IMG/VR virus record: IMGVR_UViG_3300021960_010709
Span: 1 to 28,075 of that record
DNA length: 28,075 nt
Strand: one strand, 5' to 3'
From: a virus
Part shown: positions 9,383-27,707 of the stretch, one piece after another
How the letters are laid out: the number at the start of each line of letters is the position of its first letter
Numbering within the stretch: the first letter of the stretch is position 1
Position numbers and translations under genes: made by a program
Notes under the pieces: model-generated
What the model was told of the DNA's origin: nothing
Databases searched by the model: none
What the model saw: the letters and a program-made list of their open reading frames with translations, nothing else

Positions 9383-9407
9383 TGGTTTTCCTTTCTGTAT
9401 ATAATTT

Positions 9408-9436
9408 ATTATACTACAAAACCTATATACAGTCAA
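9408..9436 (-). promoter_or_regulatory. Near-consensus sigma70 promoter for the exonuclease-dut-thyX unit
   Basis: On the minus strand TTGACT (9431-9436) and TATAAT (9408-9413) are separated by exactly 17 nt. Predicted transcription would start near 9401, giving a ~20-nt leader that contains the Shine-Dalgarno of the exonuclease gene. This is the best sigma70 match seen in the window and fits an early-type promoter read by host RNA polymerase. Confidence 0.8.
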
Positions 9437-9448
9437 GAAGTATTGTTC

Positions 9449-11880: not shown

Positions 11881-12929
11881 CTCTTTATATAGTCTAATCC
11901 TTTTTTGGAGTTAAGTAGGAAGTTCTCATCACAGAATAGAACATGTATATCTTTGTCCACACACTGCTCAAATAACTCTATCCTTCTATTTATTGAACTG
12001 CTTAATCCATGCATACTTAACAAGGCAATTCCTTCTACCTCTGTCTCAGTGATAAAAAATTCTAGATGAGGATTCCAGTCTGTAAGAGTATATTCGTTAT
12101 GCCATCCTACTGGTTTTACTCCTAATTTGTCCACATAGTTCTCTATAAAACTTCTTGCTATATAAAATGGCATAGTTCCAAGATAATCTCCAGCAGGGTC
12201 ATTAAATACAATCCAACGTCTATTGATATCTATCTTTGGAGTTTCAACTATAGTGTTTGGAAATCTGAAATAACTACCAGGCTTACGATAACCATATTTT
12301 GTACCCTTATACATCGCTCGTATATCAAGACCAATACGAGTTTTTCCTGTAGTATTGTTTATGTTACCATGCCAGTGATCTTGGTCAAATAACCACGCCT
12401 GTCCTTGTTTTATTTCTACAGGATAAGACATTTGATAACATAATTCTTGCATTTTCGCCATTGAAAGTTTTTCTTTAAAAAATACATTTGTGAGATTTTT
12501 TGAATCTTCTCTTGAGACTACTTGCATAGAATTAGACCCAAATGCATTTGATACTGGAGTCCATATTGTATGCATACCCTTACTGTAGGCAGTTAAGTCT
12601 CCTGTGTGAAATGTTAATAAACTACCTTGTCTTTGTTGATCTGGTAGCACAACGTTTAGAGTAGGCGTTGCCTGTATAAGATAGTCACCGTCCCCAATTA
12701 TGTCATAGAAGTAATCATCTACCCAACCAGAAAACTCTTTGGTTCTAACGAATTGTTCAATTTTCTTTCTTAGAGGAACAATCTCCGTTCTATCAAAATA
12801 TTCATGTAGGTTTTCTATATCAGGACAACTTGGTTTTATTTCTTGTATTACAGATAATATTCTATCGTACCAAGGAAATTTATTCAAATCATAATCTACT
12901 ACATTATGATCCCAATCAATAATTTTCAT
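11865..12929 (-). CDS. StrG-like 2OG oxygenase fused to a LIC12192-like domain
   Basis: This 354-residue protein has two parts. Residues ~40-210 resemble StrG-type oxygenases of sporadic carbohydrate clusters: FHTGD (108-111; one residue longer than HxD), MHTIWTPV...GSNSMQVV (119-138), and HWHGNINNTTGKTRIGLDIRA (185-205), giving the distal His and the Arg that binds 2-oxoglutarate. Residues ~245-345 (AGDYLGTMPFYIARSF, VEGIALLSMHGLSSSINRR, HVLFCDENFLL) match what I recall of the LIC12192-type carbohydrate-cluster proteins, usually separate genes. An AGGA Shine-Dalgarno precedes the ATG. The fusion ties both activities to one substrate. Function beyond this is unknown. Confidence 0.65.
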   Translation of the reverse strand: MKIIDWDHNVVDYDLNKFPWYDRILSVIQEIKPSCPDIENLHEYFDRTEIVPLRKKIEQFVRTKEFSGWVDDYFYDIIGDGDYLIQATPTLNVVLPDQQRQGSLLTFHTGDLTAYSKGMHTIWTPVSNAFGSNSMQVVSREDSKNLTNVFFKEKLSMAKMQELCYQMSYPVEIKQGQAWLFDQDHWHGNINNTTGKTRIGLDIRAMYKGTKYGYRKPGSYFRFPNTIVETPKIDINRRWIVFNDPAGDYLGTMPFYIARSFIENYVDKLGVKPVGWHNEYTLTDWNPHLEFFITETEVEGIALLSMHGLSSSINRRIELFEQCVDKDIHVLFCDENFLLNSKKGLDYIKRCLEF

Positions 12930-14085
12930 TTGTTAGTCCTAGCAAATAGTTTTCCATATTTTCAATTCTATTATCAATATGATTATAATTATATTCTAAT
13001 ATATGATCAATTCTACTATTAAACTCTTTTAACTCATCTAAACTTTTATTACATAGTTTTTCTAGTTCTATCATAGCCATTATGAATCTTTTTTGATTAT
13101 CTGTTTCATCATCATAGCTTTCATCAATAAAGGGATGAAATGTTTCGTATCCTATATCTTGTAAAGCTTTTAAAGTATGGGGTTGTCCAATTAATATAAA
13201 AGGTTTTCTCCACATCATAGGGCGAAGAGATTTTTCTGTAACAAGTATTCTTCCTGCAAAAGCTGCATTGTAATATGCTTCTAAGACTAAAGAAAAATAA
13301 GAGTTATTTTCTATGTGTTCTGCAAGTTTATCTACCTCTTTTATTTTAATACTTGTATCACTTAAAATATGTTTAAATATATTAGGCATATTATCTGTGA
13401 TATAATTAATATCTTCACAAGTTTTATGGGTATAATCTGCGTAATCTAATAAATTTTTCTTTTTTAACCCTTTTAATGTAGCTTGTCTAAAATCATAATT
13501 TGAATTTTCACTATTATTTAACACACAAAACTTTTTTTCTTTTGCAGCATACCGCTTTTTAATTCTAGGTCGAATAATATCTAATTCGTGATTAACTCCA
13601 ACTTGTAAATTAAAACTTTCTTCAAATTTTAATTTATTATTAACTATAAATATTATTTTTTCTTTTGGTATATGATAAAATAAACTTTTTATTTGAGAAA
13701 AATGTCCTTCATTGACTGGTTCCATATCTATACCAATTAGTATGTATTTTATATTTTCTATAAAATTTTCATCATATATAGTAAAATTTTTAAACCCTTT
13801 AGTTGATAAATAATCTAATTGTTCTATAGATTGACCACAATAAAATTGAATTGGGTATATCGCTTTTTGTTCTTTAGTAACTTCTTTTGTATTTATAAAC
13901 TCTAATTTATTTTGTTGCCACAATCTCATTATTATATAAGGAATTGTACAACCACCCTCGGTTCTTTTACTAAAAATTTTATCTTTATAAAAATTATCAA
14001 AAACAATAGAATCATTTAAGTTAGGCAAAGGACCTTTTTCATCAAACCTATCAAAAGCTACTTTTAATTTCTTTAATCCAGTCAT
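12916..14085 (-). CDS. Putative glycosyltransferase-like protein
   Basis: This 389-residue protein is very rich in Lys, Asn and Ile. The recognisable part is C-terminal: SYFSLVLEAYYNAAFAGRILVTEKSLRPMMWRKPFILIGQPHTLKALQDIGYETFHPFIDESYDD. This TEK-x5-6-W-x-KPFILIGQP...LGY pattern is one I associate with glycosyltransferase-like proteins in phages and capsule clusters, comparable to exostosin or GT10 ends. The N-terminal two thirds are not assignable. No Shine-Dalgarno is clear. It overlaps the nuclease gene upstream and the StrG-like gene downstream, making it the first member of the cassette. A donor-sugar transferase is plausible, but the call is tentative. Confidence 0.45.
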   Translation of the reverse strand: MTGLKKLKVAFDRFDEKGPLPNLNDSIVFDNFYKDKIFSKRTEGGCTIPYIIMRLWQQNKLEFINTKEVTKEQKAIYPIQFYCGQSIEQLDYLSTKGFKNFTIYDENFIENIKYILIGIDMEPVNEGHFSQIKSLFYHIPKEKIIFIVNNKLKFEESFNLQVGVNHELDIIRPRIKKRYAAKEKKFCVLNNSENSNYDFRQATLKGLKKKNLLDYADYTHKTCEDINYITDNMPNIFKHILSDTSIKIKEVDKLAEHIENNSYFSLVLEAYYNAAFAGRILVTEKSLRPMMWRKPFILIGQPHTLKALQDIGYETFHPFIDESYDDETDNQKRFIMAMIELEKLCNKSLDELKEFNSRIDHILEYNYNHIDNRIENMENYLLGLTNENY

Positions 14086-14491
14086 TTAAGAGTCCCATTT
14101 TAAATTTACAATCAAAAACATTGCATTCTATATAATGTTCTATCTCAACCTCATCGTCCCAACACACATAATCTTTAGAGCGATTCCATCTATAAATAAC
14201 TAAAGGTTTTTTCTTCATAACTTCTGCTTCTCTTTGTGCTTGACGCCAAAAATTTAACAGGTCAGAAGATGTTGCAGTAAGTAGTCCATTCCAATTAACT
14301 TCTTTATAATGTTTACACTCGATACAATAAGGCCACGCAGCGGTATCATGAGGAGTCCAAAGGTCTCCCTTTAAATACTCTAATGACCCACTGAGTGGCA
14401 TGCGTTTAAATTCTATATTTAATTCTTTAGTAAGTAAATCTCTTATTTTGGCTTCATATGCAGAACCTTTAATCTTACTCTTACTTGACAA
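14051..14491 (-). CDS. PD-(D/E)xK nuclease, Holliday-junction-resolvase-like
   Basis: This 146-residue protein has a PD-(D/E)xK layout: GSAYEAKIRDLL (Glu13), KGDLW (Asp43), IECKH (Glu58-x-Lys60), and a downstream FWRQAQREAEVMKKKPLVIYR helix-strand unit. This is the order used by RecU/Hjc-like resolvases and phage endonucleases. The start is TTG at 14491, preceded by AAGAAG. It probably processes branched DNA with gp46/gp47 in the recombination-dependent replication pathway (inference). It overlaps the glycosyltransferase-like gene by 35 nt and sits 15 nt downstream of phoH. Confidence 0.75.
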   Translation of the reverse strand: MSSKSKIKGSAYEAKIRDLLTKELNIEFKRMPLSGSLEYLKGDLWTPHDTAAWPYCIECKHYKEVNWNGLLTATSSDLLNFWRQAQREAEVMKKKPLVIYRWNRSKDYVCWDDEVEIEHYIECNVFDCKFKMGLLNDWIKEIKSSF

Positions 14492-14506
14492 CTAATTTCT
14501 TCTTTC

Positions 14507-15217
14507 TTATATGATTCCTTGCTCTCTAAGTTCATTTTTAGCAAGTATGTATGATTTTACTAGATCGCTTCTAACAATATCATCACATGAGAATTCTATA
14601 TTAGCAAATTGTGGTAAATGATTCAAGATTTTTATGAATTTTTTTAATCCTTGCTTTTCATTTTCTTTGACAAAGTCAGTTTGATAGAAATCACCACAAA
14701 ATAGTATTTTACAGTCTTTTCCTATTCTAGTAATGACAGAATCTAATTCGTGAAAGTTAAGATTTTGACACTCATCAATAATAATTATTGAATTATCAAA
14801 AGTTATTCCTCTAACAAAAGAAGTAGGTAAAAACTCAATTACTCCTTGTTGTTTAAGTTTTTCATAAGCATCTTTACATTCAAATAGCTCTGCACAAATT
14901 GACATATAGGGGTCTTCATAAACTTCTATCTTTTCCTGTTTATCTCCAGGTAAATATCCTATATCTCTAGTAGGGACTACACTTCTAATAACGTATAAGT
15001 TAGTGTATTGTTTATTTGATTTTTCTAATACTTCTTCTAGTGCAAGATAAATTGATATAAAAGTTTTCCCTGTTCCAGCACTTCCATGAAGTATTAAACT
15101 TTTGTTTTCTTTTTTATAAGCGTCAAAAGCATTTTTTTGGTTTGCAGTAAGAGGGCTGACAGTAATTAAATCGTCTAATTTTAGCCAGCGCCCATTACCG
15201 TTTCCGTTTTTACTCAC
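14507..15217 (-). CDS. phoH: PhoH-like P-loop NTPase
   Basis: This 236-residue protein has Walker A GSAGTGKT (45-52) and Walker B IIIIDECQN (Asp148, Glu149). PhoH family members have these and the QNxxxxE-type helix; here QNLNFHELD. PhoH proteins are common in marine phages, with an unclear role; RNA-binding ATPase/helicase-like activity has been proposed. The start is GTG at 15217, overlapping the stop of the small Cys-rich gene by 8 nt. It follows the nrd genes and precedes the nuclease. The Pho name does not prove phosphate regulation here; no Pho box was seen ahead of it. Confidence 0.88.
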   Translation of the reverse strand: MSKNGNGNGRWLKLDDLITVSPLTANQKNAFDAYKKENKSLILHGSAGTGKTFISIYLALEEVLEKSNKQYTNLYVIRSVVPTRDIGYLPGDKQEKIEVYEDPYMSICAELFECKDAYEKLKQQGVIEFLPTSFVRGITFDNSIIIIDECQNLNFHELDSVITRIGKDCKILFCGDFYQTDFVKENEKQGLKKFIKILNHLPQFANIEFSCDDIVRSDLVKSYILAKNELREQGII

Positions 15218-15341
15218 TCTTTATTGAACTTTCAGAGCAATTACATTCAGTACATAAAGGTTGTTTGTCTGTATGCTCACACTCCCCACACCAATGATTT
15301 TCACAATGGCAATCGTGTTTACAATTATTACATTTTTTCAT
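15210..15341 (-). CDS. 43-residue Cys-rich zinc-binding-type protein
   Basis: The frame opens at ATG 15341 with GGAG 7 nt upstream, one step after the NrdB stop, and ends at TAA 15210-15212. The product has nine Cys and four His in 43 residues: CNNC (4-7), CHC (11-13), CGEC (18-21), CTEC (30-33) and a further Cys at 35. The paired CxxC arrangement predicts binding of one or two zinc ions. It overlaps phoH by 8 nt. Close fit to both neighbours supports a real gene. A role as a nucleic-acid-binding ribbon or a redox or metal partner of Grx-NrdB is only possible. Confidence 0.65.
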   Translation of the reverse strand: MKKCNNCKHDCHCENHWCGECEHTDKQPLCTECNCSESSIKSE

Positions 15342-15352
15342 GTATTTCTCCA

Positions 15353-16603
15353 TTAAGCTGCTGTTTGATATACGCTATCCCAAGACCCTGTTAAGCCAGC
15401 AACTTCATATTCTGTTACTCTATTCTCAAAGAAATTGGTGTGATCTGCACCATTTAACACCCACTCTAACCAAGGTAAAGGATTTTCTTTGACTCCAAAA
15501 TTAGGTTTAAGACCTAATTGTAGTAACCTACGATCTGTTATATATTTAATATATGTTTTTACTTCTTCTGCTGTTAGTCCTTCTATATTCCCCATGTTAT
15601 ATGCTAGGTCAATAAATTTATCTTCTAACTCTACAGCAACTCTAGACATTTCATATATCTCACTTTTAAACTTGTCTCCAACAATTCTAGGAAATTCAAT
15701 ACAGTATTGTCTAAAAAGTTTAGAATTACCCTCAACATGGATTGACTCATCCCTGATTGACCATTCAACTACTTTTCCCATACCCTTCATTTTACCAACT
15801 CGTTGAAAATTAAGAAGCATGACAAAAGAAGCAAATAGGGCAACCCCCTCATTAAATACAGATTTAGCTAGAGCTAATCCCAACCCTCTTTGAGAGCTTA
15901 TACTAGAATCTGTCATAAAATCAATTTTATCAACCATTTCTTTATATTCTAGAAAAGCATGATATTCACTATCAGGCAATCCTAAAGTTTCATTTAGTAA
16001 AGCATACGCTCTTTGATGAACACCTTCTCGACCAGCAAAAGAACCAAGCATATTTCTAATTTCATTATTCTTAAATTTAGGTATAAATTGATCATAGTAA
16101 TTTTGTCCAACAGCTACATCTGATTGAGTGAATAATCTTAGAATATTAGTAACATATTCTTTTTCAATTTTACTCATTTTACCATTTTTCCAATCAGTTA
16201 CGTCTTCTGATAAATCTAGCTCATCCTCAATCCAATGAACTTTTTCGTGTCTCTTAGTAATTTCTACTGCCCAAGGATATTGAAAGGGTTTAAAAGTTTT
16301 AGAGAATTGAGTTAATCCTCCTGCTCTTTTTAATAATAAGGTGTCTGCAAGTTTCATTAATTGATCATATCCACCAATTCTCTCATCATCTATGAAAATT
16401 TGTGGCACAGAATTAACTCTTTTTTGTTTAGCGCTACTCTTACCAATAGTTTCTTCTAGATCCTGTAAACTTTGGTAAAAAGCTAAACGATCTTCTTCAT
16501 TGTCCATGAGCTGTTCTTCATACTCAAAACCATGTTCTGCTAACCATCTTTTTGTCATTAAACAAAAAGGACAATCTGTTTTACTAACTATTCTAATATC
16601 CAT
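15353..16603 (-). CDS. nrdB: Glutaredoxin-NrdB fusion (class Ia ribonucleotide reductase small subunit)
   Basis: This 416-residue protein starts with a glutaredoxin domain (1-~92): CPFC at 11-14, SVPQIFID (cis-Pro) and GGYD. It then has an R2 domain with di-iron ligands Asp130, Glu193, His196, Glu252, Glu286 and His289, and the radical tyrosine at Tyr200 (EGVHQRAY), so it appears to be a Tyr-radical class I R2. The C-terminal tail (...SVYQTAA) would dock on NrdA. ATG 16603 is chosen because GAAGGA precedes it and overlaps the nrdA stop. The glutaredoxin domain could re-reduce NrdA directly. The domain has ~20 extra residues before the cis-Pro region. Confidence 0.92.
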   Translation of the reverse strand: MDIRIVSKTDCPFCLMTKRWLAEHGFEYEEQLMDNEEDRLAFYQSLQDLEETIGKSSAKQKRVNSVPQIFIDDERIGGYDQLMKLADTLLLKRAGGLTQFSKTFKPFQYPWAVEITKRHEKVHWIEDELDLSEDVTDWKNGKMSKIEKEYVTNILRLFTQSDVAVGQNYYDQFIPKFKNNEIRNMLGSFAGREGVHQRAYALLNETLGLPDSEYHAFLEYKEMVDKIDFMTDSSISSQRGLGLALAKSVFNEGVALFASFVMLLNFQRVGKMKGMGKVVEWSIRDESIHVEGNSKLFRQYCIEFPRIVGDKFKSEIYEMSRVAVELEDKFIDLAYNMGNIEGLTAEEVKTYIKYITDRRLLQLGLKPNFGVKENPLPWLEWVLNGADHTNFFENRVTEYEVAGLTGSWDSVYQTAA

Positions 16604-16607
16604 AATT

Positions 16608-18410
16608 TTATCCTTCACATGCCACGCAGGAATCATCTTCTGAATCCCCGTAGTCTTTTAGTTGATCTCTTGCAATTTTCATTGAAACATTTTCTGCTCT
16701 TTGTGTTGACTCTGTTCTTAAATAATACATTCCTTTACACCCATGCTTCCAAGCAGCAAAATGTGTATTATGTACATAAGCTTTCGAAGCTCCTGCCGGG
16801 AAAAACACATTTAATGACTGTCCTTGACATAAGTATTTTTGTCTCTCTCCCGCCTGCTCTACTATTTTTATTTGATCTAATTCAATAGCTGTTTTAAAAA
16901 TAGATTTTAATTCTTGGCTTAAGAAGTCTAGATGTTGAACTGACCCACCGTTTGTAATAATAGAAGTCCAAACTTCTTGAGTGTTTTTACCTAATTTTTC
17001 TAATTCTTCTTCTAGATAACCATTCTTAACTAAGTGGGACCCTGCTCTAGTACGGTGGGTATAAGCATTTGCTTTTAAAGGCTCTATTGAAGGAGATGTG
17101 TTTGCAATAATAGAACTATTAGCATTAGGTGCAATTGCTAACATATGAGAATTTCTCCTACCAGTTCCTTGCATGTCCGGGCACTCTCCTAGTTCTTCTG
17201 CTAATTTTTTGGTTTCTTCTACTGCTTTAGCTTTTATTAACTTAAACATCTGTTCGTTAAGTTTAAAAGCTTCCGGCGAGTCAAAAGCAACCCTATGTTT
17301 ATGAAAATAAGAATGTAGACCCATTGCACCTAATCCAAGGGACCTCTCACTTTTGGCCGAATACTTAGCTCTTTCAATTTGAGGAGGAGCGTAATCAATA
17401 AAAAATTGTAAAACATTATCTAAAAATCTAATAAGATCGTTGACCATTTGAGAATCTTTCCACTCATCAAATAATTCTAAATTTACTGATGATAAACAAC
17501 ACACTGCGGTACGATTATCATTAGTAGGTAAGTGAATTTCGTTACAAAGGTTTGACCCCCTAAGTTTAAGTCCTTTATCTTTTAAAGTCTGGGGTAATGC
17601 TTTGTTAGCAGTATCAATAAAATTGAGATAAGGTTCTCCTGTTCTAAACCTAATTTCCAAAAGAGTTTCCCACAGTTTTCTCGCCCTAACTTGGTCTCTC
17701 ACGCTATGATCATTAGGATCTAAAAGATACCAATCTTTGTCTTTTTCTACTGCGTCCATAAATTTATCTGTAATATTAACAGCATTATGCAAGTTTAAAC
17801 ATTTACGATTAATATCACCTGTAGGAACCCGCATATTAATAAATTCAATAATGTCAGGGTGGTCAATATCAATATAAGCAGCATAAGAACCTTTACGGGT
17901 TTTACCTTGTCTATACGCAGTCATATCAGCATCTACTGTGTGTAAAAAAGGCATAGGTCCGGGAGCTTTATCAGATACGGCCCTAACATCGCTCCAATGT
18001 CCTCCAACACCTCCTCCTTTAACAGATAACCAGCGAAGTTCTGAACTGTGAGAAATTAACCCCTCTAAAGAATCAGGAACATAAGTTAAAAAACAAGAAA
18101 TGGGTAACGCTTTAGTTGCCTCTCCTGGCAAAGGGGCGTTTGATAGGACAGGGGAAGAATACATAAACCAATTATCAGATACATAATTATAAATTCTTTG
18201 AGCTAGGTCCATATCCCCACGACAATAAGCAGTTGCTGCACGAGCATAAGCATATTGAGGAGAAGTCTCATCCTCACGACAATAGTACTCCATTAAAAGT
18301 TTTCTAGCTTGTTCTGTAAGCTTGTTGTCTTTAGATAAGTCTATTTCTATTCCTAAATGAGAAACTATTGTTTCATTAGGAAATTCTAAAATTTCCGCTG
18401 TGTTCTGCAT
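16608..18410 (-). CDS. nrdA: Ribonucleotide reductase large subunit NrdA, without ATP cone
   Basis: This 600-residue protein reduces ribonucleoside diphosphates with NrdB. The thiyl-radical triad is in GSNLCNEIH: Asn287, Cys289, Glu291. The substrate-site disulfide pair is Cys106 (ISCFL) and Cys304 (AVCCL), and the mobile tail pair is CVAC near the C-terminus (595, 598). It is shorter than E. coli NrdA (761) and begins without the ATP-cone domain, so dATP feedback inhibition is probably lost, as in cyanophage enzymes. GAAGGA precedes the ATG, and it lies 3 nt after the gp46 stop. It ends next to the NrdB start in one operon. Confidence 0.93.
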   Translation of the reverse strand: MQNTAEILEFPNETIVSHLGIEIDLSKDNKLTEQARKLLMEYYCREDETSPQYAYARAATAYCRGDMDLAQRIYNYVSDNWFMYSSPVLSNAPLPGEATKALPISCFLTYVPDSLEGLISHSSELRWLSVKGGGVGGHWSDVRAVSDKAPGPMPFLHTVDADMTAYRQGKTRKGSYAAYIDIDHPDIIEFINMRVPTGDINRKCLNLHNAVNITDKFMDAVEKDKDWYLLDPNDHSVRDQVRARKLWETLLEIRFRTGEPYLNFIDTANKALPQTLKDKGLKLRGSNLCNEIHLPTNDNRTAVCCLSSVNLELFDEWKDSQMVNDLIRFLDNVLQFFIDYAPPQIERAKYSAKSERSLGLGAMGLHSYFHKHRVAFDSPEAFKLNEQMFKLIKAKAVEETKKLAEELGECPDMQGTGRRNSHMLAIAPNANSSIIANTSPSIEPLKANAYTHRTRAGSHLVKNGYLEEELEKLGKNTQEVWTSIITNGGSVQHLDFLSQELKSIFKTAIELDQIKIVEQAGERQKYLCQGQSLNVFFPAGASKAYVHNTHFAAWKHGCKGMYYLRTESTQRAENVSMKIARDQLKDYGDSEDDSCVACEG

Positions 18411-18413
18411 GGT

Positions 18414-20246
18414 TTATCCTTCTATTTTGCTGATATTATTTTGTTTGGTAATTGAAACTTTTTCAATTAGGGGATGGGTAAAATCGTGGGAGATCAAGAA
18501 AACGTTTAAGTCATTTTCTTGTTGTAAAATTTCAACTAATCTCTCTTTGCCCGACTCGTCTAATACTCCTGTCACTTCGTCCAAGAAAAGAAGATTGATA
18601 TGACTACCGCCAAGGCGAGATAAAAGTTTTCTGATAGATAGTAGAATAGAAGTTTGTATCCTACTAAATTCTCCTCCAGAAACGCTTTCAATTGTTGTTT
18701 CTTTACCATGATTGAATATAACTATATTTAGTTTTTCACCCGTAAGTCTAAAGATTAACTGAAACTGCCCGTCTGAAAATTCTGACAGATAATGATTAAT
18801 TGTTTCTTCTAATTCTTTAGCTAAATTTTCTAATTTAAAAGCAACTATACCTGTAGTGCTAAAGGCTTTTCTTAAAATTGTAAGATTCTGAACCTTTGAT
18901 TTAAGATTAATTATATCAGAATTGACCACATCTTGTCTATTTAAAAATTGTGCTTTTTGTTCTGTTAGAGTATCTACTTTAGTATTGTGTATTTTAACTT
19001 GTTCATTGTGTTCTACTATCTCTTGCCTAGCTTCTTCTTGATCTCTTATTTGAATTTTTAAAGATTTTTCTTTTCTTTCTAGTTTTCCATAGTCAGGGTA
19101 ATCTTTAGGAAGTGATGTGTCTATTAATTGAGAAAATTGTTCAAACTTTTCAATTGATTTTTGATTATTGTTAAAGACATCAGTTTCTTCTACAAACTTA
19201 TTTCTTTCTTCTACAAGAACTTTAAGTTCATCATTTAATCTATTTATTGTTTTAGTCGAAGAAAACAAATCTTCTTCTAAATTACCCTTCATTTGCATTG
19301 CTTGACTATTGTCTATTGATTGTCCACAAGCGTAACAACTATCTGCAGTATCTATAGCCTTAAGTTGTTTATTTACGTTATCCATATGATTTTTTGTTTT
19401 TGCAATATCACTTTGAAGAGTTTCTAACTCTTCAAAAAGCGTTGGATTTACTTCGGGAGATTTTAGTGACATATCGAATTTTAGAGCATCTCTGTCAGAG
19501 AGTAATAAATTGTTTTTGTCTATTCGTTTACATTGACTTACGTATTGTTTTAACTCTGCTTGAATAAGACCTAATTCTTCTCTAATGGCTTCGTTGATTG
19601 TGGGAATTTCTTTTAATTCTTGCTTTTCTCCAATATTGGCTTCTGCTAAGAATCTATTAATACCATTAAGCTCTCCATCTAGCTTATTTAAATCTTTTTC
19701 TACTTCAGAAATTTTTAGCTTTAGGGTATCACCAATAGCAATATATTTTTCTAATCCAAATAGGTTTATTAAAAACTTTTTTCTGTTTGTATCTGTTGCT
19801 TTGATAAAATCTAATAAATCTGTGGAACTTTGATAAGTTAGTTGAGAAAATATTTCAAAGTCCATTCCCAAGATTTCAGCAATCTTTTTATATGTATCTA
19901 AAACTTTATGCTCAGTTAGGTCTGTTGTCCCATTATAAAAACTAACCTTACCAGAATTTCCGTTCCTAGAAACGGATACCGCATAAGGCTCTTCGTCCAC
20001 ATTAAAAGTTAAAGAACCAGACCAAGATTTACCATTACCATATCTATTAAGAATATCTCCTTTTTTTATTCCTTTGATGTTTTTTCCAAACAAAATTTCT
20101 TGAATAATTAAAGCAATAGTAGATTTACCACTACCATTAGACGCTGTTAATTGTGTTATATCAAAAGAATTTAAATCTAATGTATTATCTTCTCCATAAC
20201 TAAACATATTATTAATTGTTAAATCTTTTAGCGTTATTTTAGCCAT
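18414..20246 (-). CDS. 46: gp46-like SbcC/Rad50 recombination ATPase
   Basis: This 610-residue SMC-like protein has Walker A ASNGSGKST (35-43), a long coiled coil interrupted by a zinc hook CYAC (Cys303, Cys306), the ABC signature VSGGEFSR (~522-529), and Walker B LLFLDEVTG (Asp556, Glu557). It partners with the gp47/SbcD nuclease, which is encoded just upstream with one gene between. The complex degrades and resects DNA ends and supports recombination-dependent replication. The length is close to T4 gp46 (560). It overlaps the PP-loop gene by 8 nt. Confidence 0.93.
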   Translation of the reverse strand: MAKITLKDLTINNMFSYGEDNTLDLNSFDITQLTASNGSGKSTIALIIQEILFGKNIKGIKKGDILNRYGNGKSWSGSLTFNVDEEPYAVSVSRNGNSGKVSFYNGTTDLTEHKVLDTYKKIAEILGMDFEIFSQLTYQSSTDLLDFIKATDTNRKKFLINLFGLEKYIAIGDTLKLKISEVEKDLNKLDGELNGINRFLAEANIGEKQELKEIPTINEAIREELGLIQAELKQYVSQCKRIDKNNLLLSDRDALKFDMSLKSPEVNPTLFEELETLQSDIAKTKNHMDNVNKQLKAIDTADSCYACGQSIDNSQAMQMKGNLEEDLFSSTKTINRLNDELKVLVEERNKFVEETDVFNNNQKSIEKFEQFSQLIDTSLPKDYPDYGKLERKEKSLKIQIRDQEEARQEIVEHNEQVKIHNTKVDTLTEQKAQFLNRQDVVNSDIINLKSKVQNLTILRKAFSTTGIVAFKLENLAKELEETINHYLSEFSDGQFQLIFRLTGEKLNIVIFNHGKETTIESVSGGEFSRIQTSILLSIRKLLSRLGGSHINLLFLDEVTGVLDESGKERLVEILQQENDLNVFLISHDFTHPLIEKVSITKQNNISKIEG

Positions 20247-21201
20247 TCTGTAACCTTTTCATATAATTATCTATCATAATTTTCCACTTTTCTGCGCCTA
20301 TATTTTCGAGTATTTTTTTTGGGTTATTTTTAATTAAATTAAAAACTAAGTAATCCCATGTGATAAAAGATTGCCATCTATAATTATTAAATTTAGAATA
20401 CTCTTCTATTAAATTTTCTTGTATTAATGGCATCTTTTCCCATCCGGTTCTTTTTATTCTTCTTGGCAAATCAGGGTACGACTCATATAAAAAGTCGTTG
20501 TTCTTCTCTCCAGGCTGCTTACCGTCCCAGTTCCTAGAATAGTGTAAAAAAATAGGCTCTAAACTAGTAAAAGTAAAGAACTTTTTATTAGTGTTAATTG
20601 CATATTTAACTAGATTAGGAGAATCTTCCCACCACCCCCATCCAAAAGTAGGGTGAACGTCTGGATTATGTCCACTAAAAACTAATATAGTATCATCGTC
20701 CACAAAATCAAAAAGCCTAGTAAGACATATTTGGCTCATTGAGTGTGTGAATTGTCCTAATTTATGAGCTTTTGTAAATATATCTTCTACTACTCTTTCT
20801 TGCGTTAATTTTATGACTCTGTAAGGAATATTTCTATCTTTACAATATTTAGCTGCATACACAATATCAAAATCATTAAGACCGTCAAATAGTCTTAAAG
20901 ATAATACATCAAAAGGAATTCCTAGTTGATAAAAAGTTTCTGCAGTAACTTCTCCGTCTATTCCACCACTTAAAGCTAAAGTAAATTTATAATTGCTATA
21001 CTTCTCTGCAAACTTTGTAGCTAAAAGAGTTAAATCTTCTTTTATAGTTTTATGAGATTTATTATAGGGAGAAACATTTGCTCTTACCCCAAGTGTTGGT
21101 ATATATTCGTCCCCCCAATATCCACGATCAGGGCGCATATGGGTACCGGTTTGTAGATACTCCCAATATACACGATTTAAAGATAAATCAAGATCATACA
21201 T
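20239..21201 (-). CDS. PP-loop ATP pyrophosphatase (asparagine-synthase/QueC-like fold)
   Basis: This 320-residue protein has a PP-loop at 78-84 (SGGIDGE) inside TLALSGGIDGEVTAETF, followed by FDVLSLRLFDGLND, where the second-strand acidic residue sits, and an FSGHNPDVHP loop. PP-loop enzymes adenylate a carbonyl or ring group with release of pyrophosphate (QueC, Asn synthase, TilS, GuaA and others). The canonical SGGxDS Ser is Gly here. The sequence does not match a named subfamily I can identify. It is inserted between gp46 and gp47 with 8-nt overlaps on both sides, an unusual location. A modified base or small-molecule role is inference. Confidence 0.65.
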   Translation of the reverse strand: MYDLDLSLNRVYWEYLQTGTHMRPDRGYWGDEYIPTLGVRANVSPYNKSHKTIKEDLTLLATKFAEKYSNYKFTLALSGGIDGEVTAETFYQLGIPFDVLSLRLFDGLNDFDIVYAAKYCKDRNIPYRVIKLTQERVVEDIFTKAHKLGQFTHSMSQICLTRLFDFVDDDTILVFSGHNPDVHPTFGWGWWEDSPNLVKYAINTNKKFFTFTSLEPIFLHYSRNWDGKQPGEKNNDFLYESYPDLPRRIKRTGWEKMPLIQENLIEEYSKFNNYRWQSFITWDYLVFNLIKNNPKKILENIGAEKWKIMIDNYMKRLQNG

Positions 21202-22159
21202 TTAAATTTAGCTCTAAAAACTCGTCTATTACTTTTTTAGAATTACCAACCTTAATGTGTTCAAGATATAAACTTAATTCTTCAACAATAGTTTTATCTT
21301 TTAAATCTAACTTAGAGTCTTCATTGGGTTTATGTGCTATCTTTTTATCTAAAAGTTTAGAGTCTTTTATTTTACTTAGTTCATCTAAATTTCCAGTAAC
21401 TTCATAAATAGTGTGATGATAGGTATCTTCAACAAGTTTATCATCAACTTCTACAGTTTTTCTAACTAATTTAGGTAAATCTAACACTTTAAAATCTACA
21501 CTATGATTTTGATGATCTATGAAATCAATAACATTAACTCCATACTTTTTGTTTGCATCCCTATCAAAAGTGACATTCATCGGGCTACCACTATAATAAG
21601 CAGGATAATCCAAGTAACGATGATTAAAGTGTATGTCACCGAGAAGTATGAGTTGCCAGGGACGAAGCTTTTCAAAATCGTACTCGGGAGTGATGTGTGG
21701 CGGCACTTCTCCCCTAATATGAGCAACCAAAACATCACCTTGTTCATACGTCGGCAGATTGTCTGTTTGCATTTCTCCGTATGGGAAAAAACAAAACCCT
21801 TGACCCCTAACCTCTTCACGTTTATTTTCTGTAATAAGTACCACATTTGGATTCGTAATAGCGTGTTGTTCATGAAAATGCTCCAAAAATGTTTTGCCTT
21901 TTCTAGTGGCTTCATGGTTTCCCGGAATTATATATGTTGGAATTGTGACTGAGTTTGCAAAACGCAAAAAAAGGCATACCTCATCTGCTTCAGGTTTTCT
22001 GTCGAAAACATCACCAGCTAAGATATGCACATCACAGTCTTTTTCTAATTTGTGAATTTCTTCAAAAAATAGTCTAAAACGATTCGCTTGCCACTCATAA
22101 GGCACTTTTTTCTTATGTAAATTAATGTGCCAATCAGCACTGTGTAGAATTTTAATCAT
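21194..22159 (-). CDS. 47: gp47-like SbcD/Mre11 nuclease
   Basis: This 321-residue calcineurin-like phosphoesterase has the metal-binding set in order: SADWH (Asp9, His11), AGDVFD, PGNHEA, VLVAHIRGE and GDIHFNH. The C-terminal ~100 residues are Lys- and Asp-rich and would contact the gp46 ATPase. It acts as the nuclease of the gp46/gp47 complex. AAGGTGG lies 10 nt before the ATG. It is the first gene of the long minus unit, 37 nt from the stop of the preceding gene. The length is close to T4 gp47 (339). Confidence 0.93.
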   Translation of the reverse strand: MIKILHSADWHINLHKKKVPYEWQANRFRLFFEEIHKLEKDCDVHILAGDVFDRKPEADEVCLFLRFANSVTIPTYIIPGNHEATRKGKTFLEHFHEQHAITNPNVVLITENKREEVRGQGFCFFPYGEMQTDNLPTYEQGDVLVAHIRGEVPPHITPEYDFEKLRPWQLILLGDIHFNHRYLDYPAYYSGSPMNVTFDRDANKKYGVNVIDFIDHQNHSVDFKVLDLPKLVRKTVEVDDKLVEDTYHHTIYEVTGNLDELSKIKDSKLLDKKIAHKPNEDSKLDLKDKTIVEELSLYLEHIKVGNSKKVIDEFLELNLNV

Positions 22160-22196
22160 GCTTTATTTTACCACCTTTTTGTCAATTTGTCTATGT

Positions 22197-22742
22197 TTAT
22201 TTTACTTTGTATACTGTTATAAATATATCCTCGTGTATATTGTGTTGCACCCAATTTAACTTTTTTTGTTGAGCAAATTTTAAAATATTTTTATTCATAT
22301 CTTTAATATGTTTTTGCATACCTTCGTCATTTACATAGTAATCATAATTAGGATATTTTATATTCCACCCACCTGCTTGTTTCCACCAATCAAAACTATC
22401 TGCATCATTTCTATAAATTAAGATAACCCAATCATTAGGAAAAAGTTTCGTAATTTCTGGTAGCACATAAGACCATTCATGACTTTTATGTAATTTACAC
22501 CCAACTCCTGAGTATGGCATATCTAAGAGGTTTGAATCTAAGATAGGACTAAACTCCATCCCGGTGCCATAATAAACACCGAGATGGCCGCTATAGTCAT
22601 GATGGACATACATTCTTGAAGGATTCCTGTCAGAGATGTCGAACCTGTCATCTTCAAGTTCTTGAGCGATACCGCTCCACCTACTTCCAGGAACTCCTGT
22701 AAAGAATATTCTTTCGGGTAAATTACCTTTTAAGAATTGCAT
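22197..22742 (-). CDS. Sulfotransferase-like P-loop protein
   Basis: This 181-residue protein starts with RIFFTGVPGSRWSGIAQ (~11-27), a PAPS/nucleotide-binding-type loop, and has a NDWVILIYRNDADSFDWWKQAGGW stretch in the place of the 3'-phosphate-binding strand of sulfotransferases. I recall similar proteins in marine T4-like phages. ATG 22742 is chosen; a TTG at 22751 is also in frame. No transmembrane segment is seen. It overlaps the TctC gene by 20 nt, suggesting the same transcript. The acceptor, if any, is unknown; a P-loop kinase-like protein is the main alternative. Confidence 0.5.
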   Translation of the reverse strand: MQFLKGNLPERIFFTGVPGSRWSGIAQELEDDRFDISDRNPSRMYVHHDYSGHLGVYYGTGMEFSPILDSNLLDMPYSGVGCKLHKSHEWSYVLPEITKLFPNDWVILIYRNDADSFDWWKQAGGWNIKYPNYDYYVNDEGMQKHIKDMNKNILKFAQQKKLNWVQHNIHEDIFITVYKVK

Positions 22743-23745
22743 TATACCCAAGCACTTCTTTTTGCCAATACACTAAGGTTGTTAAAGTTTTCTTAGTAGT
22801 CATAGAGTCTAACTTACTAACTACATCAATCAGCTCTTCCCCCTTCCACCAATCATATTTACCAACACTTTTCTCAATGTCTTTGATGGCTTCTGGATCG
22901 TTTAACATGCTTTCTAAAGCGGCTCTTACTTTTGCAGTATTAGGATTATTTTTGTTCATCCAAAGTGCTTTTTGAAGTGTGTCTCTATAAGACTTAACTA
23001 GCACATAAGCTCCATAAAGCTTACCTCTGGGTTGTTCCCCCCATTTTTCTACAAATTGTTTGGTAAAAGATTTATTTGGATGATTAGGGTCATCTACAAT
23101 TTTAAATCCTTGAGCTGAAGTTACTCCATGTGTAAATAATACTTCTCCTGCTTTTTGGGCATGTTTTTTATATGCAGCGGGGTTTTCTCTTGTAATATTC
23201 AAATCACCCCTTCTATACGCCATACGTCTTTCCCCGCCTGACATTCCTTTTACAAAAGTAATTTTATCTTCATAACACTTTTTATAAGCCGAGAGAGACT
23301 TTAGATTACCACACAGATACAAAGTCAAAGCCATAACATCAGGAACATTACCGCTTCCTCCAGCAAAAACTGCTTTATCTTTTAGGCCTTTGTGTCCCAT
23401 TACAATAGTTAAGTTCATGCCACCAATAGGATCGTAATCCAAATAGTTATAATCAACTTTTTCTGTTAGAAAAGAGACCCCGTTTCCTCCATGAGAAACC
23501 ATGATTGTCTTTTCATCAAAACGTAAGTCCTTGTGAAATTTATTAAACCCTGGGATGTCTCTAGCTCCCGGAATATGTTTTAGTACGATTTTTTCTCCCA
23601 AATGTTTTTGTAGATGTTTGGAAATAATAGAAGCCCATTGAGACGTACCTGCCCCCGGCTTTTGTGGAATTACCATCGTGTAGTCAGCTTTTGCTACACT
23701 AGCTGATAGTAAAATAATCGCAGATGCGAGTAGTAGTTTTTTCAT
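22723..23745 (-). CDS. TctC-like periplasmic solute-binding protein of the TTT family
   Basis: This 340-residue protein has a signal peptide (MKKLLLASAIILLSASVAKA, cleavage after residue 20), then YTMVIPQKPGAGTSQWASIISKHL, the ligand-binding start typical of Bug/TctC proteins, and KIVLKHIPGARDIPGFNKF. It would work in the periplasm of a Gram-negative host and deliver a carboxylate-type ligand to TctA. The ligand cannot be read from sequence. The ATG overlaps the tctA stop (ATGA). Residues CGNLKS...KCYED contain two Cys that could form a disulfide. Phage-encoded TctC is unusual. Confidence 0.8.
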   Translation of the reverse strand: MKKLLLASAIILLSASVAKADYTMVIPQKPGAGTSQWASIISKHLQKHLGEKIVLKHIPGARDIPGFNKFHKDLRFDEKTIMVSHGGNGVSFLTEKVDYNYLDYDPIGGMNLTIVMGHKGLKDKAVFAGGSGNVPDVMALTLYLCGNLKSLSAYKKCYEDKITFVKGMSGGERRMAYRRGDLNITRENPAAYKKHAQKAGEVLFTHGVTSAQGFKIVDDPNHPNKSFTKQFVEKWGEQPRGKLYGAYVLVKSYRDTLQKALWMNKNNPNTAKVRAALESMLNDPEAIKDIEKSVGKYDWWKGEELIDVVSKLDSMTTKKTLTTLVYWQKEVLGYNAILKR

Positions 23746-25067
23746 AATATATGCCTTGTTAATAATTGAACTGATAGTAGTTCAAACCTTTCAAATAATA
23801 TAAAGCCAATAATTATTGCTGGCTTAGAGATTTGTAGTTTGTGTGCTATTATTCCTATTACGGAAAAAATAGCAAACAGCAAGTAGTCTTCCCAACCCCC
23901 TGTATATTGTACACAACTCCATACAACTAGAATAAATATTACGGGAAAATAATATTTATAGGGTATATTAGTGATATAACATATTTTATTCAGAAAAAGT
24001 AACAATATAACTGCTACTATTATGGTTCCTCCCAAGAAACCAAAAATCATAGAATCAAATAGTTTTTCATCTTCAAATATAGAAGGGTCCCCTAGTTCTA
24101 TATTTAGATACATTAGTAATGCTAAAACAATAGCAGCAAAAGGGGCACCGGGAATACCAAATAAAACTGTGGTAATCATTGAGGTTGCTTTTTGCGCATT
24201 ATTAGCACCTTCGCAACCTATAACCCCTCTTATATTCCCTTTGCCAAAAGGAATTGTAGGGTTTTTTACAGAAGCTACTGTGTGTCCATATGCTATCCAG
24301 TCTGCTACTGCTCCACCTAATCCCGGTAAAAATCCTATAATTGCACCGAATATGCCACCTTTAAAAGAAATCCACCAATTTTTAAATGTTGCATAAATTC
24401 CTAGTTTAACATAGGATTTAGTAGCCTTTTTATATGGTTTTTTGTTACCAACTAGTGCGTCAAATATCTCTGGAATCGCAAAAACTCCAGCAATGACAGG
24501 CATTAGTTGTAGTCCATCTTTTAAATATTCCCAATCAAAAGTTAACCTAGATACGTTAGTTACTGGATTAGTTCCCACTAAGGCAAAAAGAATACCTAAA
24601 CCTAACCCTACAACTCCTAAATACCATTTTTTTCCTAAAACAAAGATAACACACAAAAATGCTATCAAATTAATTATCCACAGTTCAAGTGATCCTACAT
24701 ATAGATAAACGAAATCTAGTTGTCTAATAAAACAAAATACAAGAACTCCCCAAAGAATACCATTTAGAGTAGAGGAAGTTATTGCAGAAGAAAGAGCAAA
24801 ACTCGCTTTTCCTCGTTGTGCTAGTGGATATCCGTCTTGGATAGTGGCTGCAGAAGAGTTAGCTCCTGGTATCCCTAGTAAGACACTAGAAAACGTATCA
24901 GCAGTAGTTGACGCTGCAACTACTGCCATAATAAATATTAACGCTGAATATGGGTCTGGAAATATATATAGAAAACTAAATAGAATTATTAGTCCTGTTG
25001 TGGCACCAGCAGTAGGTATTAATCCTACTAACAGCCCGTATAAAACCCCTCCAATTAACTCAATCAT
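23742..25067 (-). CDS. TctA-like large membrane subunit of a TTT-family transporter
   Basis: This 441-residue protein is highly hydrophobic with about ten membrane segments. Family motifs are LLGIPGANSSAATIQDGYPLAQRG (about 63-86), FLPGLGGAVADWIAYG and NNAQKAT, and LFGIPGAPFAAIVLALL. This pattern is the TctA signature; typical TctA is ~500 residues, so this one is slightly shortened at the N-terminus. With TctC it would form a secondary transporter in the host inner membrane. No TctB (small four-helix subunit) is seen next to it. The gene overlaps the methyltransferase by 8 nt and tctC by 4 nt. Confidence 0.85.
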   Translation of the reverse strand: MIELIGGVLYGLLVGLIPTAGATTGLIILFSFLYIFPDPYSALIFIMAVVAASTTADTFSSVLLGIPGANSSAATIQDGYPLAQRGKASFALSSAITSSTLNGILWGVLVFCFIRQLDFVYLYVGSLELWIINLIAFLCVIFVLGKKWYLGVVGLGLGILFALVGTNPVTNVSRLTFDWEYLKDGLQLMPVIAGVFAIPEIFDALVGNKKPYKKATKSYVKLGIYATFKNWWISFKGGIFGAIIGFLPGLGGAVADWIAYGHTVASVKNPTIPFGKGNIRGVIGCEGANNAQKATSMITTVLFGIPGAPFAAIVLALLMYLNIELGDPSIFEDEKLFDSMIFGFLGGTIIVAVILLLFLNKICYITNIPYKYYFPVIFILVVWSCVQYTGGWEDYLLFAIFSVIGIIAHKLQISKPAIIIGFILFERFELLSVQLLTRHIL

Positions 25068-25548
25068 TTTTTAAATAGTCAAATTTAAACCTTCCGTTTG
25101 CTGCTTCTCTGATGTTAGTAGTTTTTAAGTTAAAAACTTGTCCATAATGTAGAGCAAGAGAGGTTGTCCATTTGTCATACCAAGGTAACATTGTTCCATC
25201 AACGTGAGGATACCCTGGGTTAACTTTCATCATTATTTTTCCTTGTGAATCAAGCAGAGAAACTATTTTTCTTAGTCTATCTTCAATCCACTGAATCGAA
25301 TAAAAATTTATAGAACCATAACAGATAATCAAATCATATTTACTATTTGATTTAAAATCTATAATATCAATAAGTTCGTCTGCTTCTTCACAAACTATAT
25401 CAATTCCCCAAAAAGTGTTTTTAGCGTGCTCTTTATATTGATTATGCCCACAACCAACATCTAAAACATTATTCGCAATGCTAACCGATTTTACTACATC
25501 AGGGTCAATTTCTGTTGTTTTCCAAGTTGTTTTAAAGTATTCTTTCAT
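25060..25548 (-). CDS. Class I SAM-dependent methyltransferase
   Basis: This 162-residue protein has motif I NVLDVGCGHNQY (~27-38), a GIDIVCEEADE strand 2 with an acidic end, and DLIICYGSINFYSIQW (motif IV-like). The short size suggests a small-molecule or sugar methyltransferase; the substrate is unknown. The ATG overlaps the upstream stop (ATGA), and its end overlaps tctA by 8 nt, so it is part of the transporter transcript. The link with transport is positional only. Confidence 0.75.
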   Translation of the reverse strand: MKEYFKTTWKTTEIDPDVVKSVSIANNVLDVGCGHNQYKEHAKNTFWGIDIVCEEADELIDIIDFKSNSKYDLIICYGSINFYSIQWIEDRLRKIVSLLDSQGKIMMKVNPGYPHVDGTMLPWYDKWTTSLALHYGQVFNLKTTNIREAANGRFKFDYLKND

Positions 25549-26354
25549 TCATTTTCACGTTTTTTTAAATTAACAATACTATTTTGCTTATCAATATGAT
25601 CATATATTTTTTTTCTTTCATTGTAGTATAATATGTAAGCTCTAACAGCTTTTTTTCTTGGATAAGAAAAGTTTAAAAAATTAGATAACTTTTCAAATTC
25701 TTGTTCGTACAATGAATAATCTTCTCCAAAAAAATTCTCAATATCAAGATTAAGAATTCTAGAATCTTTGTATGAATTTTCTTTATTAAATAGTTCTTTT
25801 TGTTCTTTGTAAACAAGTCTTTTTAAAAAGATATCAGGCAACCGATTAGTTACAATATTTTCGTCTGTTTTTATTACACAATTTACTATTAAATTTATAT
25901 TCGGATGCGCGTCTAATAACAGTTTTGCAGGAGTATGTGTATTTGACCATGTAAAAGATTTTTTTCCATAAACCACTTTGTTAAAAAAATCTTTCATTGT
26001 TTCTGGCTCGGTTTGTTGTAATTTATTTTTTATATCCTCGTTAATCTCTTTTTCAGTTTGCCAAGTAACTTCACATCCAGCTTTTATACTGCCTAATGTG
26101 TTAAAAACATTAGGAATATGCGCTGTTGTATAAAAATTACCACCTATAGTTTCTTGATAGTCTTGAGTCTCAGGATACTGTAAAGGACAAGTTATTTTTT
26201 CATCATAATCCCATAAATTAAAACGAGGATTCCACCAATAATCTTCCTGATGAGCAGAAATAATTCTTTGTACAGCATTCCCTCCTGACCACATAGGCCA
26301 ACACACAAAAGTAGCTTTTTCTGTTAATTTTATTCTTAATTCATCTATATGCAT
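25545..26354 (-). CDS. Unknown phage protein, sulfotransferase-like candidate
   Basis: This 269-residue protein begins KATFVCWPMWSGGNAVQRIISA (~13-34), which looks like a nucleotide-binding loop of sulfotransferase-like proteins, and ends with ILNLDIENFFGEDYSLYEQEFEKLSNFLN, a C-terminal helical pattern seen in such proteins. Apart from these two stretches no motif stands out. It is rich in Lys, Asn and Ile (extremely AT-rich DNA). The ATG at 26354 has no Shine-Dalgarno (GAAAACTGATA upstream). It is the first gene of the transporter unit and lies 12 nt after a terminator stem. Confidence 0.4.
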   Translation of the reverse strand: MHIDELRIKLTEKATFVCWPMWSGGNAVQRIISAHQEDYWWNPRFNLWDYDEKITCPLQYPETQDYQETIGGNFYTTAHIPNVFNTLGSIKAGCEVTWQTEKEINEDIKNKLQQTEPETMKDFFNKVVYGKKSFTWSNTHTPAKLLLDAHPNINLIVNCVIKTDENIVTNRLPDIFLKRLVYKEQKELFNKENSYKDSRILNLDIENFFGEDYSLYEQEFEKLSNFLNFSYPRKKAVRAYILYYNERKKIYDHIDKQNSIVNLKKRENE

Positions 26355-26435: not shown

Positions 26436-27392
26436 TTAATATCCATTAGGAATAGCTATATAGTGAATGAATAGTACGATTCCGACACTGGCACCCAATC
26501 CGATCATCATTTTAAAGAAATCACGAGTTACCAACGGGAACACTTGTTTCATTTTTGTGTTTCTCACTGAGGCGATTGCTAGTTCACGACCAGTTAACAG
26601 CCCTACGAATACCCACGTGGTTGACATTGGAATATCGTTTAACTCCTTAAAGAACCATAAACACAACCAATATACTAGGTCAATGATTGTAGCTGAACGA
26701 ATATATCGAGTGCTTGTTTTTTCTAGAACGATATTTTGAATTTTACCGCCTCGCTCTCTGAACATCCATCCTAGTCCTACAACAAATACTACACTGATTA
26801 GAACCATTAAATCCCATGGAATTTGTCTGGGAAGAAACACAGCAATGTTGGCCATATCATGTGATAACCAAGTCCACCACAAAAATCCTGTAGTACACCA
26901 TTGCGCTACTCGCCAATAAGATTTATATTTTTCATTGACGGGTTCTTTCTCATTCATCACTCTAGATACGATATGCCATATTGCATATGCTGCGACAGCC
27001 GCGACTGCATATCCCATCATTGATTTCATTAGCATCTTTTCTAGCACAAATGTTGATGCAAATGCTGATAACACTAAGAATGAAGTTGAAACTGGAACTC
27101 CTATTCTAGTTAGTAGCAACAGCAAAGCCGGAGCCGTTGCATGATACCACTGCACTTCTTGCCACGGAATCTTATTTAGCCTGCCATATGAAATGTCTCC
27201 GCCATTTACATACCAGCCATACCATAATGCCCATAACAAAACAGACGACGCGGCAAACCACATCGTCTTCCAATTAAATCTCTCGTTATTAGAAGCGATC
27301 CATGTGCCGAGAGTTTGCACAGAATCGTTTGCGATGACACTATAGGCAGCTAATAAAAAGCCAATTGTCATCCATATCGTTAGGTCGGTCAT
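26436..27392 (-). CDS. PiT-family phosphate permease
   Basis: This 318-residue membrane protein has about nine to ten hydrophobic segments. It carries the two half-repeat motifs of PiT/SLC20 transporters: ANDSVQTLGTW (~21-31) and a second, diverged SHDMANIAVF (~178-187). It also has VPVSTSFLVLSAFAS and PMSTTWVFVGLLTGRELA, where the P-x-S-T-(S/T) patterns are typical of PiT membrane turns. It is shorter than E. coli PitA (499) because the central cytoplasmic loop is reduced. It would import phosphate across the host inner membrane. AAAGG lies ~9 nt ahead of the ATG. Blocks I counted are ~38-50% G+C, above its AT-rich neighbours. A Pho-box-like promoter lies upstream. Confidence 0.75.
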   Translation of the reverse strand: MTDLTIWMTIGFLLAAYSVIANDSVQTLGTWIASNNERFNWKTMWFAASSVLLWALWYGWYVNGGDISYGRLNKIPWQEVQWYHATAPALLLLLTRIGVPVSTSFLVLSAFASTFVLEKMLMKSMMGYAVAAVAAYAIWHIVSRVMNEKEPVNEKYKSYWRVAQWCTTGFLWWTWLSHDMANIAVFLPRQIPWDLMVLISVVFVVGLGWMFRERGGKIQNIVLEKTSTRYIRSATIIDLVYWLCLWFFKELNDIPMSTTWVFVGLLTGRELAIASVRNTKMKQVFPLVTRDFFKMMIGLGASVGIVLFIHYIAIPNGY

Positions 27393-27441
27393 ATTTTATA
27401 CCTTTCAGTTGTTGTTATGCAACCCTTTAGGTTACTTTTAG

Positions 27442-27475
27442 AGTATAGCATAAATATGTTACAGTTTCATTACAA
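27442..27475 (-). promoter_or_regulatory. Candidate Pho box plus -10 ahead of the PiT permease gene
   Basis: On the minus strand TTGTAATGAAACTGTAAC (27458-27475) is two 7-mers separated by 4 nt: TTGTAAT and CTGTAAC, each matching CTGTCAT at five of seven positions. It is followed after exactly 10 nt by TATACT (27442-27447), a good -10. This geometry is that of PhoB-activated promoters, where the Pho box replaces the -35. No -35 is otherwise seen. It would let the host PhoB/PhoR system induce the phage permease under phosphate starvation. Confidence 0.6.
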
Positions 27476-27519: not shown

Positions 27520-27548
27520 TTGACGAAGATCAAAAAGTATGCTACTAT
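27520..27548 (+). promoter_or_regulatory. Extended -10 promoter reading rightward on the plus strand
   Basis: TTGACG (27520-27525) is followed after 17 nt by TACTAT (27543-27548). A TGC precedes the -10 to give an extended -10 element. Transcription is predicted to start near 27555, on the opposite strand to all adjacent genes, and to enter a GC-rich stretch with hairpins. Confidence 0.65.
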
Positions 27549-27554
27549 TGGGGC

Positions 27555-27707
27555 ATAGCTGGTAAACAACTTTAACACAGAGTGTAAAAGCTGTGGAACA
27601 AGGCTCGCACATTACACATATTGCTGTCTCGGAGAGACACAACGTAAGAACGTAGTTCTACAACGCTACGCCACCCTTGCGTCTTTCTTATCGGTAAGAT
27701 TTCTTCT
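27555..27707 (+). ncRNA. Candidate structured small RNA (antisense-oriented)
   Basis: About 150 nt after the extended -10 promoter hold no gene on either strand and are GC-richer (about 51% over 27590-27680) than the surrounding AT-rich DNA. Possible pairings: 27582-27587 with 27612-27617, continued by 27592-27595 with 27608-27611; an alternative stem 27576-27580 with 27591-27595; 27625-27630 with 27634-27639; 27651-27655 with 27666-27670; and a weak terminator-like stem 27686-27690 with 27695-27699 followed by TTTCTTCT. The 3' end overlaps the end of the DUF6065-like gene in antisense. No tRNA or tmRNA pattern was found. It could instead be a 3' structure of that gene's mRNA. Confidence 0.4.

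Follow-up and report, generated by a model that had tools for sequence, protein, structure and literature searches.

A predicted SAR11-type Pho box in front of a divergent PiT-like transporter gene of a phage

The most abundant cells of the ocean include SAR11-type bacteria, which are often phosphate-limited, and the locus described here raises the question of whether a phage of such bacteria leaves the control of a transporter gene to the phosphate alarm of its host. The analyzed stretch of viral DNA, in the following termed the window, has a length of 28,075 nucleotides and corresponds to positions 1 to 28,075 of the IMG/VR record IMGVR_UViG_3300021960_010709; the phage itself is uncultured, marine, and widespread. 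An earlier note on this DNA had described two 7-mers, TTGTAAT and CTGTAAC, that lie 4 nt apart and 10 nt before a TATACT −10 element, and this is exact on the minus strand. The half-sites at 27475-27469 and 27464-27458 are separated by a GAAA spacer and together form a putative Pho box (TTGTAAT-GAAA-CTGTAAC, 27458..27475, minus strand) of two direct repeats with an 11-bp period, an assignment that is based on sequence, statistics, and conservation. The 10 nt ATATTTATGC separate CTGTAAC from the −10 element (27442..27447, minus strand) that follows on the 3′ side. By definition, a Pho box consists of two direct repeats of 7 nt with 4 nt between them (PMC4415409), and the window site has this architecture; it also overlaps the −35 region and ends exactly 10 nt before the −10 element, where about 10 nt are expected. 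The end of the box is found 65 nt 5′ of the ATG (27392) of an open reading frame of 318 aa, which is preceded by a Shine-Dalgarno-like GAAAGG, placed by sequence at 27401..27406 on the minus strand. A −35 element is not entirely missing from the promoter, because a weak sigma-70-like ATGAAA, with a 17 nt spacer to TATACT, overlaps the box. This combination scores 9/12 as a sigma-70 promoter and could, judged by its sequence, permit some PhoB-independent transcription.

The gene behind this promoter (26436..27392, minus strand) had been regarded as a PiT permease gene in the earlier note, and this assignment stands with respect to fold and profile but not with respect to the Pfam threshold. Scans of the protein against Pfam, PHROGs, and NCBIfam gave nothing above threshold; PHO4 (PF01384) scored 10.5 and 14.6 bits, under the gathering cut-off of 33.7, and a bacterial relative reached 15.4 bits. 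A profile of phage and bacterial relatives, however, matched one solved structure, the sodium-dependent phosphate transporter TmPiT from Thermotoga maritima (PDB 6L85, E 6e-8). An AlphaFold model from phage sequences alone (pLDDT 42) was discarded, and bacterial homologues were then added; the model from 42 sequences had a pLDDT of 82 and a pTM of 0.81 and could be superimposed on 6L85 with 290 aligned residues (Z 21.2, rmsd 3.6; next row Z 6.6), and Foldseek gave an E-value of 2.8e-5 for this pair. The comparison with canonical SAR11 PHO4 by hhalign was weaker than the structural match (73.6% probability). The common fold extends over the whole protein, and the motifs of both repeats are kept: N22-D23 and PVST 100-103 (P100-S102-T103) in the first, HD..AN 178-182 (D179 and A181-N182) and PMSTT 255-259 (P255-S257-T258) in the second. 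The first-repeat ND and PVST and the second-repeat ST are shared with TmPiT, whereas the identity in the structural alignment is only 16%, the length is 318 instead of about 400 residues, and the second GAND motif reads SHD in the window protein. The label "PiT-like" is therefore right, as the predicted fold is that of TmPiT despite the sub-threshold PHO4 score: according to the model, the protein has a PiT fold, and the gene product represents a divergent PiT-like clade below the Pfam PHO4 threshold. At least 599 stretches in viral contigs match the protein, and no match was found among the cultured phages of INPHARED, a set that may not include the records closest to the window. Bacterial relatives with 61-66% identity belong to Pelagibacteraceae, other marine alphaproteobacteria, and Flavobacteriales. 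The substrate is presumably phosphate, although a protein with the PHO4 fold could carry another oxyanion, such as sulfate.

Is the box more than a resemblance, and to which type does it belong? In the window, YTGTAAY-N4-YTGTAAY occurs once versus 0.01 times in dinucleotide shuffles, and the same holds for YTGTAAYNNNNYTGTAAY, with a single occurrence versus 0.01 expected. The earlier note had suggested a scan with alphaproteobacterial and cyanobacterial PhoB matrices. With a matrix built from 17 distinct SAR11 pstS sites, the window site ranked first on both strands with 18.7 bits, followed by a site with 13.1 bits, and a site of the same quality was present somewhere in 2 of 200 shuffled windows. 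The cyanobacterial and cyanophage consensus (PyTTAAPyPyT/A), on the other hand, did not match the box and was found 14 times in the window versus 21 expected, which is no excess. An E. coli-type Pho box had to be rejected as well: the window site agrees with CTGTCAT-N4-CTGTCAT in just 10/14 letters, which is why a scan of the window with this consensus, permitting up to 3 mismatches, misses the box and gave no site at all.

The promoters of the host Pho regulon carry the same motif. All 30 Pelagibacteraceae pstS promoters (15/15 distinct) hold half-sites, two or three each, that recur every 11 bp. The search pattern for these sites had been derived from the phage motif, and the matrix is thus not entirely independent of it. 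Shuffle, spacer, and strand controls were run for this reason: shuffles reached 12/14 in 1.1% of the promoters, the spacer of 4 nt was best by far, and the opposite strand had no sites. The pstS genes were found by PF12849, since the PstS model TIGR00975, which had no match in 12 host genomes, is probably unsuited to alphaproteobacterial PstS; the PF12849 matches L173-L175 were dropped, as they look like tungstate-type binding proteins. The pstC gene of L439 has TTGTAATAAAACTGTAAC, which differs from the TTGTAATGAAACTGTAAC of the window only in the spacer, and the two half-sites are identical to those of the window in L453 as well. These additional Pho-box-like sites lie between pstS and pstC of SAR11 (L439:2550-2578 and L453:2545-2562). 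In the marine alphaproteobacterium L121, a homologue of the PiT-like gene is divergent from phoR-phoB, and the intergenic gap holds CTGTAACAAATCTGTAACATAAGTGTAAT, with a second box just before phoB; the PhoB protein reaches 321 bits with TIGR02154 (curated cut-off 296), and a PhoR-like kinase is encoded alongside. This neighborhood favors phosphate as the substrate of the PiT-like family. The box before the PiT homologue is kept in L125, L129, L131, L133, and L136, and phoRB is absent beside the homologue in L125, L131, L133, and L136, the four with neighbors listed. The genes around these host loci encode LpxH and a glycosyltransferase and, in sister genomes, PhoR and PstS; their order is similar to that of the HIMB59 phosphate islands (PMC10734472), which would be in line with an assignment to this group. 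Matches in "Rhodobacteraceae Water_Bin34" were set aside, as they appear to be phage contigs in the bin, and two of them carry the phage leader described below. The boxes at pstS and pstC of SAR11 and between phoRB and the PiT homologue of L121 thus have the half-sites and the period of the window box. They differ in being host chromosomal promoters, and pstS mostly has three recognizable half-sites versus two in the window. With its matrix score and its pstC-identical half-sites, the window box is by sequence a SAR11-type, marine alphaproteobacterial Pho box.

OmpR-family regulators share an 11-bp tandem binding mode, and the 7-mers might thus be bound by another regulator of this family, encoded by host or phage and responding to another signal. 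The failure of the E. coli PhoB consensus within 3 mismatches would agree with such a regulator. However, the same repeats mark the core of the Pho regulon—all distinct SAR11 pstS promoters, pstC, and the surroundings of phoR/phoB—and there is no regulator of that type among the scanned window genes, and we therefore regard this explanation as improbable. The likely explanation, in our view, is a Pho box of the SAR11/marine alphaproteobacterial type that binds PhoB and is positioned just upstream of the −10 element of the promoter for the PiT-like gene and, probably, for the array of genes that follows; host PhoB would then switch the gene on at low phosphate. As the promoter has a SAR11-type docking site, the phage can probably let the host phosphate alarm switch on its gene. 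In an infected cell that runs short of phosphate, host PhoR would phosphorylate host PhoB, the two 7-mers, which overlap the −35 region, would be occupied by two PhoB molecules in a head-to-tail arrangement, and the bound PhoB~P would recruit RNA polymerase to TATACT. The PiT-like protein would then supply an extra phosphate importer while the phage makes DNA. In SAR11 infected by the pelagiphage HTVC027P, the host transcripts of pst and phoB increased (PMC12753301), and the Pho circuit can therefore be active during infection. The co-directional genes 3′ of the PiT-like gene (4346..26354, minus strand) encode methyltransferase-like, TctA, TctC-like, SbcD/gp47-like, SbcC/gp46-like, NrdA, NrdB, PhoH, flap endonuclease, dUTPase, and ThyX proteins. 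The Pho promoter could also serve these genes, as far as orientation permits a conclusion on co-transcription, and the array with its SbcCD-like nuclease, ribonucleotide reductase, PhoH, and ThyX would then perhaps be turned on together with the importer. The genes of the TctA and TctC-like components of a tripartite transporter (22723-25067, minus strand) are placed between the PiT-like and the gp47-like genes; they are absent in L003, the closest long relative, and the sole viral relative found of the TctC-like protein is encoded on the L057 contig, which also carries a Pho box.

The earlier note had proposed that a Pho box precedes a phage PiT-type gene, with spacing and position as in PhoB-activated promoters, and both points are borne out by comparison with other phages. 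We compared 158 distinct viral PiT upstream regions, pooled from four scans (coding strand, within 250 bp). Perfect YTGTAAY-N4-YTGTAAY sites are present in 17 of them (0.017 in shuffles), and at least 13/14 letters agree in 26 (0.4 in shuffles). When distinct perfect sites are counted, there are 12 in the 39 kb before PiT genes versus 4 in 826 kb elsewhere, and 3 of these 4 stand before the first gene of a dCMP deaminase-ORF-PiT operon (L048/L053/L057); of the 16 sites in the phage DNA covered (about 865 kb), 15 hence precede PiT or its operon. Among 19 whole records (about 1.1 Mb), all 7 perfect matches precede the PiT-like gene. Among spacers between 0 and 14 nt, 4 nt gave 12 distinct forward sites, 11 nt gave 1, and all others gave 0, which makes the 4-nt spacing effectively unique, and nearly all top-scoring sites of the SAR11 pstS matrix on phage DNA precede the PiT-like gene or its operon. 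The distance of 10 nt between box and −10 element is kept in the window, L003, L048, L053, L057, L210, and L214, with differing first genes; the −10 element at this distance reads TATATT in L048/L053/L057/L210 and TATAAT in L214, and the L053 box has three half-sites (CTGTCAT-AAAA-CTGTAAC-AAAA-CTGTGAT). In L032, L063, L246, and L253, a TAAATA that resembles T4-type late promoters follows 11 nt after the box. The boxes in L155, L156, L159, and L160 were taken as chance occurrences, as the L159 site is within a coding sequence and the others are the same sequence.

The absence of the two 7-mers from homologous phages had been named as an observation that would speak against a Pho box, and this turned out to be half true: most viral relatives have no forward box within 250 bp, and many of them have a hairpin leader instead, while others keep the box. 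In the phages L004, L011, L013, L046, L198, and L333, the box is inverted relative to the PiT-like gene, and activation from such a position is less easy to explain. It could thus be argued that the box is a relic without present function that arrived together with a phosphate gene of the host, or that it is a repressor site. The inverted boxes in the first five of these phages would agree with this, as would the presence of a box at the host homologue itself in the L121/L131 group, beside phoRB in L121. However, the box of the host homologue (L121, L131) is on the opposite strand, i.e., inverted relative to the gene, and the phage boxes differ from it in orientation and position, keep their fixed distance to the −10 element, and stand before another first gene in L048/L053/L057. 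These differences indicate selection in the phage, and a leftover or repressor site is therefore very unlikely. It is extremely improbable that the repeats are a chance AT-rich resemblance at an ordinary sigma-70 promoter that drives the gene, as the sigma-70 score of ATGAAA-17-TATACT and the equally good sites in shuffled windows stand against a box with unique spacing and constant distance to the −10 element that recurs before the same gene in diverged phages; by its sequence distribution, the motif before viral PiT genes is not a product of chance.

The preferred reading, control by a PhoB protein of the SAR11 type, implies a corresponding host. Permuted alphaproteobacterial tmRNAs are encoded by the box-carrying relatives G004, G014 (in which the box is inverted), and G015, and an alphaproteobacterial tmRNA is also present in leader-carrying relatives. 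The tmRNA was found in relatives only, with none in the window; an alphaproteobacterial host of the window's phage is likely, and this host would presumably be a SAR11/HIMB59-type bacterium. The gp46-like and flap-endonuclease proteins have about one third identity to those of cultured phages. Loci with phage-encoded permuted alphaproteobacterial tmRNAs include L026:2544-2913, L042:4076-4449, and L074:2986-3348; for G001, a low-scoring tmRNA match (16.8 bits) was set aside because it falls in the PiT-like gene. A glutamine riboswitch (glnA leader) is located at L063:1650-1698 of a phage contig.

Cyanophages offer an established case of phage genes controlled by host PhoB, with the cyanobacterial box in use, and the study in question cautions that a predicted Pho box is no reliable guide to binding (PMC10976474). 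In cyanophages, pstS, phoA, and other genes (P-SSM2 pstS; S-PM2) are likewise phage genes for phosphate acquisition under host PhoR-PhoB, a control that is predicted for the window. The differences are that cyanophages have cyanobacterial hosts and the PyTTAAPyPyT/A box, whereas the window has YTGTAAY-N4-YTGTAAY, relatives with alphaproteobacterial tmRNA, and a PiT-like permease. A PiT-family gene has also been proposed as an auxiliary gene of soil phages, in a study whose main text contains neither the word promoter nor the term Pho box (PMC10987575). Searches of an open-access library turned up no account of Pho boxes in phages that infect SAR11-type hosts, and as cyanophage PhoB control is established, the arrangement can be seen as a variant of a known tactic that is new in host group, box type, and gene. 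If our reading is correct, the nutrient status of the host directly tunes phage expression outside cyanophages as well, with another box and another transporter. The comparison has also produced a SAR11 Pho-box matrix that can be applied to other phages and hosts.

The hairpin leader that many relatives have is a second device at the same gene. It is found directly before the start codon in 85 of the 158 viral PiT upstream regions (L019:2935-3000, L026:2935-3000, L063:2935-3000, and about 80 more viral loci) and consists of GTGAGC, a 5-bp stem around GGTAAAR, and AAGCA, followed by the ribosome-binding site. All 5 stem pairs covary, 100% of 225 cells pair, and the covariation is 0.73 versus 0.22 in shuffles. 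In 9 of 16 phage records, the leader occurs as one copy, always directly before the PiT-like gene, and a box is also present farther upstream in 11 leader-type regions, with inverted orientation in one case. The window has no leader, none was found in the host loci tested, and Rfam had no family for it at the gathering cut-off in ten sources, nor by E-value in L026. It is conceivable, if rather doubtful, that one phage PiT-like family is governed by interchangeable devices, either a Pho box in forward or inverted orientation that is read by the host, or a phage-specific hairpin. The hairpin could then act as a translational operator or as a new cis-regulatory RNA that perhaps responds to phosphate or some other ligand, and it would replace or supplement the PhoB switch. 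Pho-box and hairpin-leader versions of one gene represent a natural experiment on the regulation of nutrient genes in phages.

A further structured element may be encoded on the other side of the window promoter, in a region that had no Rfam family over the cut-off. A divergent promoter (TTGACG-17-TACTAT, 27520..27548, plus strand), which is kept in relatives, precedes a candidate structured RNA (27549..27690, plus strand) that comprises three triloop hairpins and would be transcribed away from the PiT-like gene. Changes on both sides are seen in 4 of 13 pairs among 6 sequences, and promoter and candidate RNA (27520-27690) are common to L003, L048, L053, L057, and L214.
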